Shown one piece after another: positions 2,986-61,528 of a stretch of DNA of 64,000 bases. Below the pieces are notes generated by a model. That model was not told the DNA's origin. It worked only from the letters and a program-made list of their open reading frames with translations, and searched no databases. Source of the stretch: an uncultured Muribaculaceae bacterium (GTDB lineage Bacteria > Bacteroidota > Bacteroidia > Bacteroidales > Muribaculaceae); assembly GCA_947525975.1 (NCBI GenBank), contig CANNVE010000013.1, positions 21,042 to 85,041 on the forward strand, in the 5' to 3' direction. The position numbers and the translations under genes are program-made. Each line of letters starts with the position of its first letter. Position 1 is the first letter of the stretch.

Positions 2986-3983
2986 CTCTCTTGGTATTTT
3001 ATGTCTTGGTTTTTTGTCGCGGAAATGATCAGGTGGGCCAGATCGTGGGCTGTCAGGCCCGCTATGGCCTTGTTGATGCCTTCGAGAGCCGCTTCCAGCC
3101 TGTCGGCTTCGGGAGGCAGGCCGGCGCATCGGTCGAGTATCGGCGCTGTGTCGGCAGAATTGAAGAAGTCGCCCCTCAGCTCCACGCTGCGGATTAAGCC
3201 GTCAGCCACGCTCACCGCGGGGCGTATCGTGCCCACGCCCTCTATGCGTCGCCCGTGGAGGCCTTCGCAAAGGTCGAGCCGCAGCCATTGCGGGCTGTAG
3301 TATCCCTGCTCCATGGCTTCGATTTCGGCCACTTGGCCGGGAGTGAGGGCGATTTCGCCGTCGGTGATGTTTTCGATGAGGAATGACGCCAGCTGCTCTA
3401 CCCTCAGGCCGGGCAGATGCTCCGAGAGGGTGGTGATGTGGCTTTTCACCGATTTCACCTTGTGGGCCTCGAGTTTGCTGCGGTCGGGGGTGATGGCATT
3501 GAGCATATTTTCGAAATTCGTGCTCACGAGCATCGTGCTGTGGGCTATCGAGCGCTCCGGCAGCCGCAGGAATGCGCCGCCAGATACTTTGCGCCCGCCG
3601 ATGAGCACATCGTTGCGCCCCGAGGCTTCGGCCTCCACGCCGAGACGGCGGAGCGCCCGGGCCACCATGGCGGTGTATCCGCCAAAGGCGCGCTGCACAT
3701 CGGTGTCGGGCGATATGTAGCTCAGCATCAGATTGTCGAGGTCGGCGTATACGCATCCGCCTCCGCTCTTGCGCCTGACCACGTCGATGCCGCGCTCACG
3801 GCAATACGCCAGATCCACCTCCACGGGGATGTCCTGATGGCGGCCGCATATCACGGTGGGCTCCACGTTCCAGACGAAGAAATACTCGCCTGCGGGCAAT
3901 GCAGCGGCCACCCACTCCTCCATGGCAAGATAGAAGGGCAGGCGCCGGCGCGAAGTGCCGTCGGGCAATGCTACATGTATCAT
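2982..3983 (-). CDS. lplA: Lipoate--protein ligase family protein
   Basis: 333 aa with RRKSGGGCVYADLDNLMLSYI and GRNDVLIGGRKVSGGAF motifs; overlaps gcvT. Confidence 0.9.
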   Translation of the reverse strand: MIHVALPDGTSRRRLPFYLAMEEWVAAALPAGEYFFVWNVEPTVICGRHQDIPVEVDLAYCRERGIDVVRRKSGGGCVYADLDNLMLSYISPDTDVQRAFGGYTAMVARALRRLGVEAEASGRNDVLIGGRKVSGGAFLRLPERSIAHSTMLVSTNFENMLNAITPDRSKLEAHKVKSVKSHITTLSEHLPGLRVEQLASFLIENITDGEIALTPGQVAEIEAMEQGYYSPQWLRLDLCEGLHGRRIEGVGTIRPAVSVADGLIRSVELRGDFFNSADTAPILDRCAGLPPEADRLEAALEGINKAIAGLTAHDLAHLIISATKNQDIKYQER

Positions 3984-29487: not shown

Positions 29488-29565
29488 ACCGCATCAAGCC
29501 TCATGGAGGGGCGATTTCAAAAATCGCCCGATAACACCAACCTTCGGCCCAAATAACACGGATTG

Positions 29566-29740
29566 ACACAGATCCACACGGATTAACACGGATTTTTTTT
29601 CATTCAGCGGAAGCCCTTGGGGGCGATTGCCTCCACGAGCTTCCGCAGGAAGCCGATTTATAGTAACCGGGCATGCCGAAGCGCAGCGCAGGCATGCCCG
29701 GCTTTGCCTGCAACAGTGCTCGGCATCCGGAGGAAGCCGA
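29566..29740. repeat. Dispersed repeat copy 1
   Basis: cacagatccacacggattaacacggatt ... ccgggcatgcc gaagcgcagcgca ggcatgcccgg ctttgcctgcaacagtgctcggcatcc. Confidence 0.85.
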
Positions 29741-29878
29741 TTGTGACTTTTTCGGCTTTCTCCGAATGCCGAGCACTCCTTGTGGGATGCAACCCCGCAT
29801 GACATCGCTTCACTTCGTCATACGGGGTTAATATAATTCGGCATCCTTCCGGATGCCCCACCGCACACCAAAGGGCTA

Positions 29879-30058
29879 TATCACAGACCCTCACGGATTA
29901 GCACGGTTTATTTCATTTAGTGGCAGCCCATGGGCGCGATTACCGCCCGTGGGCTTCCGCAGGAAGCCGATTTAAAGTAACCGGGCATGCCGAAGCGAAG
30001 CGCAGGCATGCCCGGCTTTGCCTGCAACAGTGCTCGGCATCCTTCCGGATGCCCCACC
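29879..30058. repeat. Dispersed repeat copy 2
   Basis: atcacagaccctcacggattagcacgg ... ccgggcatgcc gaagcgaagcgca ggcatgcccgg ctttgcctgcaacagtgctcggcatcc. Confidence 0.85.
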
Positions 30059-30332
30059 GCACACCAAAGGCTATGCTATGAGGCGGGCGCGATAAATCGC
30101 GCCCCTACCGTTGGGTTACATGGTGTGCATTTGATTGGGTTGGCGGATTTGATGGTAAAATTGGTCTTTTTCACCAATTTATCAATGGATTTGTGTTTTT
30201 GGTTTGGAATATTGAAGTTTTTTTTTAATATTGCAGTCGTATTTATGCTATTGGCCATTATTGAGCCCGTATATATCTACAGTAACGCTATAACTCACTT
30301 ATAATATAACCTTAAATCAATCATTTAACACA

Positions 30333-31871
30333 ATGGGTTTATCAACAGAAATTAAAAAGTTACTGCTTATGGCTCTAATGGCAGCGTCGATGGCTGCGTG
30401 TTCTCCTTCGTCAAAGGGAGGCGATGCCAACAACGAAACACAGAATAAAATTAAGCTCGGTGTCGCTGACATCGAGGTGGTATGTCATGGCGATGTGCCC
30501 GCTGACCTCTCCGCTGTAGTCGGGGTGAGTTCAATATTTGACAGGACATTCACGTCGGAGGAGACGCAATTGAGCGAATCCGGCGCGGGCAGGCTCGCCG
30601 GGCAGATAGAGATAGAGACGCCCCGTGCAATCGCTGCATTTATGCTTATGGGCGATGCTGACAGATACGCTATGGGATATGTGGAACTGTCGCAGGAGAC
30701 GCCGCTTGTGATTGATGTGACATTCGCCGACGGGAAAGCCGTGAAGGCGGTGAAGTCAAACGAAGATGGCGTTAACGCCAATCCGCTGATGCTTTCGCCC
30801 GACGACAAAGACATGATGCTGACCGATGCGGCATACATAGCGGCCAGTCCGGGATATTGGAACAAGGAAAAACAGCCGCGCCTATATGTGGAAGATTGCG
30901 CTGATGCCGGAAAGGCTATTGAGAAGTTTGATGAATTCAGGGCATACGTCATCGACCAGGCTCTGCACGGCAGGGAGGTGCCCGCCGCATTTGACGGCTG
31001 GTTTCTGACGCATCTCAACAATATGATTTACGGAGACTATTACCTTGGATACCGCGAATTTATTGAAAATGAGGGCGCGGAACTGCCGATTGAATTTTTC
31101 CGTTTTCTCAACGACATTGACTTCAATTGGCTGCTGACCCACGATGTGGTCACCGGGCCCAACTACATGATGCGCAAAATGCTGTCAAGCCCCAACCTCG
31201 GGCTGAAGCCGATAGGGGAGATGCCCGTGGCTGAATGGCAGGCGCAGACAAAGGCAAGCCTCGGCAGGGTGATGGACGATGTGCCTCAGCTGCTGCTCGA
31301 CATGCTTTCGGCCACTTCCTACGCCGAGCAGCTCAATGCCAACAAGCCGCTGTCGGAAGCGCAGATTGAGAATATCAAGGCCGGATACGGCGATGACCTC
31401 GGCAAGCTTCTGCTCATCAAGAATGAAAGGCTTGTGAGCGACCTGAACACCGAGGTGGACATGGCCGACCTTTCGGGCGAGGAATTCATGCTGCAGCGAT
31501 ACATCGACGAGAATTTCGCCGGACTCCCCGTGGTGGTGGACACATGGAACACATGGTGCATGCCCTGCATGGAGGCACACAAGAATGTGGAGCCGCTGCG
31601 CGAGCTGCCGGAGAGCGAGGGAGTGGTGTTCCTGTATGTGAGCGACGTGACATCGCCCTTGGCCGAGTGGCAGCGCCATGCCCCGCACATAGGCGGAAAG
31701 CACGTGCGCATCAGCGAGGCGTCGCGCGACGCGATGGGCAAGACCTACGATCTGAAGGCCTTCCCCTCCTACCTGTTCTTCGACGCCGACCATAAGCTGA
31801 ACCGCACGGTCACAGCCTATCCCGGCGACAAGAAATTCCTGCAATACATCAAGGAGGTCAATCCGCAGTGA
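30333..31871 (+). CDS. Lipoprotein with C-terminal TlpA/thioredoxin-like domain
   Basis: Lipobox MAACSPSS; VVVDTWNTWCMPCMEAHKNVEPLREL; AFPSYLFFD. Confidence 0.88.
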   Translation: MGLSTEIKKLLLMALMAASMAACSPSSKGGDANNETQNKIKLGVADIEVVCHGDVPADLSAVVGVSSIFDRTFTSEETQLSESGAGRLAGQIEIETPRAIAAFMLMGDADRYAMGYVELSQETPLVIDVTFADGKAVKAVKSNEDGVNANPLMLSPDDKDMMLTDAAYIAASPGYWNKEKQPRLYVEDCADAGKAIEKFDEFRAYVIDQALHGREVPAAFDGWFLTHLNNMIYGDYYLGYREFIENEGAELPIEFFRFLNDIDFNWLLTHDVVTGPNYMMRKMLSSPNLGLKPIGEMPVAEWQAQTKASLGRVMDDVPQLLLDMLSATSYAEQLNANKPLSEAQIENIKAGYGDDLGKLLLIKNERLVSDLNTEVDMADLSGEEFMLQRYIDENFAGLPVVVDTWNTWCMPCMEAHKNVEPLRELPESEGVVFLYVSDVTSPLAEWQRHAPHIGGKHVRISEASRDAMGKTYDLKAFPSYLFFDADHKLNRTVTAYPGDKKFLQYIKEVNPQ

Positions 31872-31935
31872 GCAAGGAAGGGCGATTGAAAAATCGCCCG
31901 ATAACGCCACCCCTCGGCCCAGGAAGACGGATTGT

Positions 31936-32171
31936 CACAGATCCACACGGATTAACACGGATTTTTTTTCATTTATCGGCAGCCCATGGGGAGAGATTAC
32001 CGCCCGAGGGCTTCCGTAGGAAGCCGATTTATAGTAACCGGGCATGCCGAAGCGAAGCGCAGGCATGCCCGGCTTGCATGCAACAGCGCCCGGCATCCAG
32101 AGGAAGCCGAAAGAATCACAATGGACTTCAGCTAAATGAAATTAATCCGTGTTAATCCGTGTGGATCTGTG
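31936..32171. mobile_element. MITE-like element with perfect 28-bp terminal inverted repeats (repeat copy 3)
   Basis: 31936-31963 cacagatccacacggattaacacggatt and 32144-32171 aatccgtgttaatccgtgtggatctgtg; internal ccgggcatgcc palindrome. Confidence 0.6.
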
Positions 32172-32282
32172 ATAATCCGTGTTTTGGATCATTGGCTGGC
32201 TTTATCCGACGATTCCATGTGATAATGGAGGTGGAAATTAGCTAAATGTTGTTTAAATGGCGGGTTTTAGGGTGAAAAAAGC

Positions 32283-57988: not shown

Positions 57989-59521
57989 ATGAAAGGTATC
58001 TGCAAAGCATTCTTAGGGGCTTTCGCCCTGCTGGCGGCGTCTTGCTCTGACGACCAGCCTGACAACATTGATGTCTCCATCCCCGGCGATGACAGCGCAT
58101 CCGAATTGAAAATCGACGTGCTCGGCGGTAGCGCCGCAATCACGTTCGACGCCTCAGGCGACTGGATCGCGGAGGTGTCCTCCGGCTCATGGCTTACCGT
58201 GTCGCCTGCATCGGGCAGCGCCGGAAAAGGCACCGTCACCGTCACAGCCGAGCCTTTTGACGTATACAGCCAGCCCAATGGCTCGCGCATCGGCTACATC
58301 ACCCTCGCCTGCGGCTCATTCTCCAAGAGCATCGCCATAGTGCAGAGCGATCCGGCTGCCGCTGAAGATAAAGACAGGACGGAAGCGGCTAAAGTGCGTC
58401 GCAGAGGCGGTGAGCTCACCTTTGAAGTTCCCTCCCACGCCATCGGATACACCGTAGAGGTGGCCGAGTCATGGATTTCGGTCGCAAACCGTGAGACAGG
58501 CTCTTTCACACTCAAAATTGACGAGAACATGACCGCCGAGAGCCGCAGGGCTGAGGTGAAGGTGCTCTCCGCCGGCGGCGATGCCGAGCTCATAAAGCTC
58601 GACGTGGAGCAAAGCTGGCGCGACATAGAGCCGGGCGAAATACTCATTGAGGAGATCTATTTCACCGGCACACCCCTTCCCTCGACAGGAAAGCCCAATT
58701 CCAAAAATACAGACCAATACTTTCTGCTCACCAACAACACTGACGAGCTCCTCTATGCCGACCGCCTCCTGATCATTGAGTCAAAGAATGCAAACGCGGG
58801 AGCCACGTGGAAGGAATTTAAGGAGCCTATCATCAACGAATATTGCGAAGCCGGCGCTGTATTCTGCGTTCCTGGCACCGGCACGGACGTGCCTCTGGAG
58901 CCGGGAGAGTCATTGCTGATCGCATCCAACGGCATAAACTATAAGGAAGGATATAGCGCGGGAAGCGCAGGCTCAAAGGTGGAGATGAACCCTGATGGAA
59001 TTGACCTTTCAAAGGCCGATTTTGAATGGTTCACCAAAACGACCAACAGCGTGATAGACATCGACGTGCCTGAGGTGGATAACCTTGACGTATGGTTCTG
59101 CTACACCCTTTCCATCTGGATCCTGCATGACAGAGGCTTCCAAAGCTACGCCATCGCGCAGGCGCCTGTCACCGTCACGGGCGAGACATTTTCGACTGAC
59201 TATAACTGGGCCGGCGCCGAATACATCAACCATACCCTCGCCGGAGATTTCGACATGACGCTTACGCAAGCCTACAAAGTGCCCAATGATTGGGTGATAG
59301 ACGCTGTGGCATGCACGGTGCCCTCTATCAATCAGGTGCGCCAGTTCTCAGAAAAGCTTGATGCCGGCTGGACATACGCATCTCCTCAAAACATAGATAA
59401 GGACGACCAGCGATATGGCCACAGCGTGCGCCGCAAGCGGGGCGATGATGGAAAGTTGATCGACACGAATAACTCAAGCAACGACTTCATCCCCAACGCC
59501 ATCCCCTCGCTCAGGCAATAG
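57989..59521 (+). CDS. BACON-domain / DUF4876-like lipoprotein
   Basis: Lipobox LAASCSDD; DASGDWIAEVSSGSWLTVSPASGSAGKGTVTVTAEP (BACON-like); IEEIYFTGTPLPSTGKPNSKNTDQYFLLTNN. Confidence 0.75.
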   Translation: MKGICKAFLGAFALLAASCSDDQPDNIDVSIPGDDSASELKIDVLGGSAAITFDASGDWIAEVSSGSWLTVSPASGSAGKGTVTVTAEPFDVYSQPNGSRIGYITLACGSFSKSIAIVQSDPAAAEDKDRTEAAKVRRRGGELTFEVPSHAIGYTVEVAESWISVANRETGSFTLKIDENMTAESRRAEVKVLSAGGDAELIKLDVEQSWRDIEPGEILIEEIYFTGTPLPSTGKPNSKNTDQYFLLTNNTDELLYADRLLIIESKNANAGATWKEFKEPIINEYCEAGAVFCVPGTGTDVPLEPGESLLIASNGINYKEGYSAGSAGSKVEMNPDGIDLSKADFEWFTKTTNSVIDIDVPEVDNLDVWFCYTLSIWILHDRGFQSYAIAQAPVTVTGETFSTDYNWAGAEYINHTLAGDFDMTLTQAYKVPNDWVIDAVACTVPSINQVRQFSEKLDAGWTYASPQNIDKDDQRYGHSVRRKRGDDGKLIDTNNSSNDFIPNAIPSLRQ

Positions 59522-59617
59522 CCATATAACTAAGCGTTAGTTTGAGCCTGCGGTGGGCGGGCGTGGTTGAGGTTTTGCCTCCTCGCACCGCTCGCCGCAG
59601 GCTTATCCATGGCGGCT

Positions 59618-59641
59618 CATGGATCGGCTATCGCTTTTCGC
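59618..59641. repeat. 24-bp direct repeat, left copy (duplicated lpxB 3' end)
   Basis: catggatcggctatcgcttttcgc, identical to 60400-60423. Confidence 0.9.
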
Positions 59642-60032
59642 AAATAAGAGATTCTATCTTTAACAACAGGGTCTCTGTTGGTCCAACCAAAGGTGCCACT
59701 TGAGATTCATCCCAATCAAATAGATCGTCATAATCCCCGGTATTGCGCATATTGAACAATGTAGAGATAAGGGAGCCGTCTTTTTTCGATAAAATATCTG
59801 TTTTGACAAATTCCTTCATCATGATTTGTATGACACCGCTATGAGTGCGGGCAGAGTATCCTTTTGATAGCAAAATGGCACTGCAAATATGAAAAATGGC
59901 GTAATATAATCGGTTCACGGCCAAGTTCCAATGCTTTAGGCGTGCAACATCTACGGCCTCTTTAAGTACGGCCTTTGACTTATTGATTCTGTATGATACA
60001 AGAGCGCTGCGCTCTTCATCGCTCAACCCCAT
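59628..60032 (-). CDS. HEPN-domain protein of HEPN/MNT pair
   Basis: 134 aa; KHWNLAVNRLYYAIFHICSAILLSKGYSARTHSGVI...; overlaps upstream MNT gene by 10 nt. Confidence 0.85.
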   Translation of the reverse strand: MGLSDEERSALVSYRINKSKAVLKEAVDVARLKHWNLAVNRLYYAIFHICSAILLSKGYSARTHSGVIQIMMKEFVKTDILSKKDGSLISTLFNMRNTGDYDDLFDWDESQVAPLVGPTETLLLKIESLICEKR

Positions 60033-60346
60033 ATTTTTATCTTTTCGTTTGTCACGTTCTTGTAAAATGGTGTGAAATTACGCTCTTGCCATTCGGAGTC
60101 AGTATAAAGGACTGGATTGATTTCAATGCCAAGTTCCGCGCCAAGCATATAGAAGGGCATAGATAGGTTTCCACGGTCATTGATGTCAAGGCGCCCTTCA
60201 CGATTGAGAAGTATGAGCAAATCCCAATCTGATTGATGTGAGTAGGTGCCTCGAGCCTGGGAGCCAAAGATGAATACAGAGGCATCTTTTGGCATAATCT
60301 TTTCCAAAAGATCCTTTATGTTTCTGATAATATCTTCTCTCTTCAT
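60023..60346 (-). CDS. MNT-type minimal nucleotidyltransferase
   Basis: 107 aa; FIFGSQARGTYSHQSDWDLLILL (GSX10DXD). Confidence 0.9.
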   Translation of the reverse strand: MKREDIIRNIKDLLEKIMPKDASVFIFGSQARGTYSHQSDWDLLILLNREGRLDINDRGNLSMPFYMLGAELGIEINPVLYTDSEWQERNFTPFYKNVTNEKIKIWG

Positions 60347-60399
60347 ACTGAATCGGTCTGTGTGAAATTGTAGTTTTTTATTATAAAAACAATAAAGGG

Positions 60400-60423
60400 C
60401 ATGGATCGGCTATCGCTTTTCGC
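60400..60423. repeat. 24-bp direct repeat, right copy (native lpxB 3' end)
   Basis: catggatcggctatcgcttttcgc spanning the lpxB stop. Confidence 0.9.
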
Positions 60424-61528
60424 GCAATAGGATTTCGGCGGCGGTGTCGGGGGCGGATTGCGTGCCGAGAATGGCGCGCATATCGGCGTAATCGTCGAGC
60501 ATGCGGCGGCGCGGCTCGCGGTCGGGGAGGAGCTTGCCCAGCTCGGCGGCACATGAATCGGCGGTGCACAGGTGCAGCAGCATTTCCGGTATGATCTGTC
60601 GGCCCGCTATTAGGTTGGGGAGAGTCACGAAGTCGATTTTCAGCACCTTGCGCATGAGGCGGAAGAAGAGTTTTGAGCCGTTGTGGCGGAACATGGCCAC
60701 CTGCGGCACTCCGGCCAGGGCTGTCTCAAGGGTGGCTGTGCCTGATGTGACCAATGCCGCCCGGGCATTGGCGAGAAGCCCGTAGGTCTGGTCGAATACC
60801 ACCGGGAGATTGGAGAATTGCTTGTAGAAATCGGGGTCGACTCCGGGCGCGCCGGCCACCACGCCCCTGTATTGCGGAAATTGGCGCATGGCTTCGGCCA
60901 TGATGGGCATATTCACGCGTATCTCGCTCAGCCGGCTGCCCGGCAGAAGGGCTATGATAGGCTTGTCCTGCAAGCGGTTGGCCTTGATGAAGTCCTCGCG
61001 TGAGGGCGCGCCGGCCATGTAGCGGTCCACCTCAAGCACTGACGGATTGCCCACGTAGTCGACCGTCATGCCGTGCTTGGCGTAGAAATCCACCTCAAAC
61101 GGGAATATGCACAGCACTTTGTCTACGATTTTGCGAATCTTCTTCACCCGCCATTCCTTCCAGGCCCATACCTTTGGCGGGATGTAATAGTGCACGGGGA
61201 TGCCCAGCTTGCGGGCGAAATCGCCCATGCGCAGGTTGAAGCTCGGGTAGTCGATGAGGATGAGGCAGTCGGGGGCTGAATCCTTTATCGCCTGCTTGGC
61301 CACCTTGAAATTGCGGCGTATGGCACCGGCATGGCGCAGGATCTCGGTGAAACCCATGAAAGCCATGTCGCGGTAGTGTATCACAGGCTCGGCGCCGGCG
61401 GCCTGAGACATCAGGTCGCCGCCGAGAAATGTGAACTGCGCCTGCGGATCGCGCTCCTTGAGGCTGCGTATGAGGTCGGCGGCATGGAGGTCGCCCGATG
61501 CCTCGCCGGCGATAAGGAAGTATTTCAT
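60410..61528 (-). CDS. lpxB: Lipid-A-disaccharide synthase
   Basis: MKYFLIAGEASGDLHAADLI; FLGGDLMSQAAGAEPVIHYRDMAFMGFTEIL; ALLPGSRLSEI. Confidence 0.96.
   Translation of the reverse strand: MKYFLIAGEASGDLHAADLIRSLKERDPQAQFTFLGGDLMSQAAGAEPVIHYRDMAFMGFTEILRHAGAIRRNFKVAKQAIKDSAPDCLILIDYPSFNLRMGDFARKLGIPVHYYIPPKVWAWKEWRVKKIRKIVDKVLCIFPFEVDFYAKHGMTVDYVGNPSVLEVDRYMAGAPSREDFIKANRLQDKPIIALLPGSRLSEIRVNMPIMAEAMRQFPQYRGVVAGAPGVDPDFYKQFSNLPVVFDQTYGLLANARAALVTSGTATLETALAGVPQVAMFRHNGSKLFFRLMRKVLKIDFVTLPNLIAGRQIIPEMLLHLCTADSCAAELGKLLPDREPRRRMLDDYADMRAILGTQSAPDTAAEILLREKR

Follow-up and report, generated by a model that had tools for sequence, protein, structure and literature searches.

A 24-bp direct repeat at the 3' end of lpxB in the window (the whole 64,000-nucleotide stretch of DNA that was analyzed) probably marks the insertion of a type VII-like HEPN/MNT cassette of ~760 bp that left a 24-bp target duplication, and the cassette is probably one of a recurrent kind of insertion in this family that lacks a recombinase, has no fixed ends and leaves duplications of variable length. 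We give this reading a probability of about 0.6. What was observed directly is that the repeats exist, that the insertions recur, that several sites are empty in relatives and that the cassettes have no ends in common. Tiny addictive gene pairs appear to enter genomes without a recombinase of their own. The entry of stand-alone toxin-antitoxin genes into chromosomes without a mobile element is poorly understood and, since the repeats mark exact insertion points, one bacterial family gives many sequence-resolved events. Two questions thereby become testable: does addiction itself guard inserts with flanking repeats against deletion, and does a shared enzyme take part?

The two copies of the 24-mer (CATGGATCGGCTATCGCTTTTCGC) in the window are exact, are repeated with a period of 782 bp and bracket only the MNT and HEPN genes, as a first-pass annotation of this DNA had reported (Table 1). 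The two genes overlap by 10 bp and run in the same direction as lpxB. The reading frames were also as described in that annotation: lpxB ends in ..LLREKR* and HEPN in ..LICEKR*, the last four residues of HEPN being encoded by the repeat. The GC content between the repeats was 40.4% vs. 60.6% for lpxB, in agreement with the AT richness attributed earlier to the cassette. The cassette carries no recombinase, again as annotated; the interval between the repeats contains just two genes, and a search of the contig revealed no tyrosine recombinase.

When three mismatches were allowed, the 24-mer matched only the same two sites in the window (0 expected from 100 shuffles) and only these two sites in the whole genome (2.9 Mb), which excludes the common dispersed repeat that the annotation had named as grounds for rejecting its proposal. 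The annotation had also proposed a search for the 24-mer around other small cassettes; no further copy was present in the window's own genome and none, with up to two mismatches, in 396 other genomes of the family (397 were searched including its own). No exact match to the 24-mer was found in viral contigs, no relative of the cassette DNA in plasmids and no relative of the HEPN protein in phages.

Table 1. Positions of the repeat copies, cassette genes and neighboring features in the window.
Feature	Position	Strand	Basis or remark
Distal 24-bp direct repeat copy	59618..59641	.	Exact match; gives HEPN last codons and stop
Proximal 24-bp direct repeat copy	60400..60423	.	Exact match; contains lpxB last codons and stop
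MNT nucleotidyltransferase, predicted antitoxin, 107 aa	60023..60346	-	PF01909 E=1.8e-9; motif GSX10DXD
HEPN protein, predicted toxin, 134 aa	59628..60032	-	PF05168 E=2.8e-12; RX6H motif
AT-rich leader, 53 bp, proximal repeat to MNT start; putative promoter	60347..60399	-	Sequence
lpxB, target gene; proximal repeat in its 3' end	60410..61528	-	PF02684 E=9e-75
Hairpin, distal repeat and unique flank; interpreted as the original lpxB downstream DNA	59605..59624	-	Folding
DUF4876/BACON-domain gene, convergent neighbor	57989..59521	+	PF16215; also adjoins lpxB in the empty G204 locus

By Pfam matches and catalytic motifs, the pair consists of adjacent HEPN (RX4-6H) and minimal nucleotidyltransferase (GSX10DXD) genes, as do the type VII HepT/MntA systems (PMC7641770, PMC2701414). 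In type VII systems the toxin is an RNase neutralized by adenylylation; the window genes are a predicted toxin and antitoxin. The MNT scored 27.5 bits against the NCBIfam MntA equivalog, below the cut-off of 60, and may at best be a distant relative of that model. PADLOC linked the MNT to candidate defence families PDC-S09 and PDC-M05A and, weakly, the HEPN to PDC-M05B (window 59628-60346).

The distal repeat copy takes part in a hairpin (ATCCATG-AGCCGC-CATGGAT) in which it is paired with unique flanking DNA, which suggests that the 24 bp derive from the target and not from the cassette. Among HEPN homologues, the tails vary directly past a conserved ..KIxxLI. The hairpin and the varied tails fit duplicated target DNA that completes the HEPN 3' end.

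The nearest relative compared was a sibling species (G204) with an lpxB 79% identical to that of the window. Its DUF4876 gene and lpxB are adjacent, with no cassette between them, so the annotated insertion of just two genes at the lpxB 3' end stands, and an empty site was found between the same two neighbors, although without the single 24-mer copy that the proposed check looked for. The lpxB of G204 ends in ..LLVE* and lacks the 24-mer; because of this divergence, G204 confirms the insertion yet not which copy is older. The annotation had called the lpxB-side copy native: it does hold the lpxB end, but nativeness is not readable from the sibling.

Eighty-six HEPN/MNT pairs, made up of a first set of relatives and a second set of further loci with the window included, were compared, and exact direct repeats of at least 16 bp flanked 17 of them, with a different sequence at each site. 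Beyond the window, the exact repeats of the first set measured 64 bp (L044), 44 bp (L049), 31 bp (L059), 53 bp (L060), 43 bp (L069), 16 bp (L073), 43 bp (L074) and 18 bp (L076), and those of the second set 45 bp (L138), 63 bp (L149), 45 bp (L154), 37 bp (L158), 16 bp (L160), 76 bp (L166), 60 bp (L177) and 44 bp (L179). The longest near-exact block was 112 bp at 99% (L149). With gapped alignment at E ≤ 1e-6, 19 of the 86 pairs were flanked vs. 1 of 509 mismatched control pairs; at E ≤ 0.01 the counts were 24 of 86 vs. 12 of 509, and most HEPN/MNT pairs had no flanking repeat detectable by the gapped test. At 3061 positions of the same spacing, taken from the window and the earlier-collected loci, only these cassettes were surrounded by repeats that reached 16 bp or more, except for one 17-bp case. 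None of 87 ordinary genes had flanking repeats, a control that is imperfect because these were mostly conserved genes. Clear flanking repeats were found in 2 of 23 HEPN/MNT pairs from other Bacteroidota. Many of the comparison genomes were drafts.

Where identified, the repeats were pieces of the landing site. The 3' end of a gene was the target in the window (lpxB), at L069 (a porin, PF14121) and at L149, and the 3' part of a tRNA-Ser was the target at L049; the related cassette L053 follows a tRNA-Ser that is intact. Promoter-like sequences were targets at L060, L073, L074 and L158, a terminator-like sequence at L059 and the first codons of the downstream gene at L076. Cassette-free relatives of L069 in two species and of L149 in one species have the target once, and it occurs twice around the insert at both loci. 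The window's own genome contains a second HEPN/MNT pair from a different branch (L158, G000:C1:194912-195316), which sits before an aminotransferase gene, with 37 bp of that gene's promoter region duplicated exactly; the sibling species carries the promoter once, ahead of the same aminotransferase gene, and its DNA further upstream differs. Both neighbors were left intact by the duplication at L069, L149 and L158. Twice, in the window and at L076, the repeat itself encodes the final HEPN codons with the stop. No empty site spanning the repeat was found for L076, where the matches of relatives start at or after the gene start and the upstream DNA differs.

Similar cassettes were found in different surroundings. 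L071 and L073 were 97% identical at the DNA level, L051 and L057 86%, and L053 and L055 81%, and in each case the similarity was limited to approximately the two genes and short flanks. In the 17 cases with exact repeats, the first matched MNT base lay 29 to 144 bp from the repeat, and the offset between the HEPN stop and the other repeat was -18 to +130 bp. A search for a conserved cassette end in these 17 cases revealed no shared motif and about 0 bits of information at both ends. The repeats enclosed only two genes in one case after another; their periods were 782-1004 bp, and no remaining element DNA was recognized. The first-pass annotation had compared the insertion to the site-specific events of integrative elements, a comparison that found no support in that form: sister cassettes lie in unrelated targets, have differing exact repeats of 16-76 bp and share no common terminal sequence. 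L041 and L042 contain the same HEPN/MNT block (89% over 1.1 kb) in rearranged surroundings, and ~170 bp are common to the left end of the cassette and a neighboring block.

Flanking repeats were also present around other cargos. ParE/YoeB-type toxin loci, which were defined by the toxin alone and searched over a wider span than HEPN/MNT, had repeats of at least 17 bp in 5 of 30 cases. Repeats of 28-86 bp flanked 6 of 28 DUF1016 nuclease genes, and no repeats flanked any of the three DUF1016 genes in the genome to which the window belongs. The porin 3' end of L069, where one species has a HEPN/MNT pair, is occupied in other species by a DUF1016 nuclease gene (L083, L106), and the duplicated segments of the two cargos are closely alike. 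A gene for a DUF1016/YhcG PDDEXK nuclease occupies the porin 3' end in L083, L106, L081 and L092, and in L083 and L106 it is flanked by the duplicated porin 3' end, with copies matching within each species. The presence of two cargos at the porin 3' end hints at a target preference. The HEPN/MNT pairs, YoeB-type pairs and DUF1016 nucleases, as small solitary genes of addiction or defence, could form a common class of recombinase-less mobile cassettes of these bacteria, with one shared insertion process, target duplications of tens to ~100 bp and landing sites that are used repeatedly, the porin 3' end among them, a proposal that we put forward tentatively. In L082 (G268), an insert of ~420 bp with no obvious gene lies between the porin 3' end and its usual neighbor. 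In L251, a DUF1016 gene is duplicated in tandem (period, 1.35 kb).

A single fixed att site accounts less well than a long target duplication for the differing repeats and for the HEPN stop supplied by the repeat. Such a duplication would be produced by illegitimate insertion based on replication or repair. Copying may leave the target, run through the cassette and re-enter upstream of the exit point (template switching), or a widely staggered break may be filled in; either route would yield variable duplications and no fixed ends. The duplication would be tolerated because both neighboring genes stay whole, and the cassette may persist because a cell that lost it exactly, by deletion between the repeats, would be left without the antitoxin gene and be harmed. 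Weighing against a long target duplication are the use of the porin 3' end by two cargos, the status of gene and tRNA 3' ends as typical integrase targets, the predominance of pairs with no repeat and the original target, which was not seen directly in the sibling.

Gene-3'-end targets and the shared porin site make recombination by an enzyme acting in trans the main rival, albeit an unlikely one. The enzyme would be a tyrosine recombinase resident in the cell, such as the integrase of an ICE or phage, or XerCD in the manner of pdif modules, and would generate the repeats as attL and attR, with the cassette carrying a copy of the target as its attachment site. Targets include protein-gene 3' ends and the tRNA-Ser 3' part, the two unrelated cargos at the porin 3' end have nearly the same boundaries, and the window's own genome has seven tyrosine-recombinase loci above the cut-off; yet the window's contig has none (no PF00589 match), promoters and a gene 5' end are targets as well, the repeats differ at every site with exact lengths of 16-76 bp, and the cassette ends have no motif in common. 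It is quite improbable that cassette DNA, perhaps circular, crosses over at a short promoter-like, terminator-like or gene-end sequence common to donor and target, which would then be what the repeats represent. The left junction of L071 and L073 does lie at a promoter-like CTAACTTTGCC present at both sites, but this would require a donor that shares its stretch with each of the different targets, and gene-specific coding 3' ends of 43 and 112 bp are hard to explain by such a crossover.

The resemblance of repeats at gene and tRNA 3' ends to attL and attR would also be consistent with larger integrative elements that have lost all of their interior save for the addictive pair. The repeated finding of just two genes between the repeats, with no recognizable leftover element DNA over periods of 782-1004 bp, makes this very improbable. 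Chance matches or dispersed intergenic repeats can hardly account for the data, as none were expected in shuffles, the window 24-mer is unique, the sibling site is empty and the ordinary genes lacked flanking repeats. Dispersed repeats do occur in these genomes (e.g., window 29519-32113), and the flanking repeats of L179 and L138 look as if they are possibly of this sort; dispersal within the genome was checked for the window 24-mer only.

Insertion with long target duplication, the reading preferred here, was reportedly described for restriction-modification systems by Nobusato in 2000 and Furuta in 2010. Restriction-modification units have long, variable target duplications and move unlinked to any mobile element (reviewed in PMC3874152; also PMC3031569). 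The cassettes resemble them in being addictive units without a mobility gene, in having long target duplications that vary from case to case (exact at 16-76 bp, near-exact to 112 bp) and in having been detected by comparing related genomes. They differ in that the duplications are mostly 16-76 bp exact and that HEPN/MNT genes, and apparently also YoeB-type and DUF1016 ones, make up the cargo. The window cassette has HEPN and nucleotidyltransferase domains only, and because the cargo is toxin-antitoxin and not restriction-modification, we propose that the process works like long-target-duplication insertion. HEPN/MNT mobility is known, and a survey from 2009 notes recent insertions with no mention of direct repeats (PMC2701414).

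The pdif/dif modules of Acinetobacter plasmids are likewise small, have short flanking sites, lack their own recombinase and, in some cases, contain toxin-antitoxin genes. Unlike pdif, which are conserved Xer sites, each repeat in this study is another target sequence, and no conserved site was common to the cassettes. Some targets match those of tyrosine-recombinase genomic islands, being gene or tRNA 3' ends whose function is preserved by duplication; in contrast to such islands, the cassettes have no integrase, ~1 kb or less lies between the repeats, and promoters and a gene 5' end are used.

Elsewhere in the window (29519-32113), long imperfect copies of an intergenic repeat (cacagatccacacggattaacacgg..) enclose a gene for a TlpA/thioredoxin-like lipoprotein (30333-31871), and the repeat is also found in inverted orientation at ~32133-32175.
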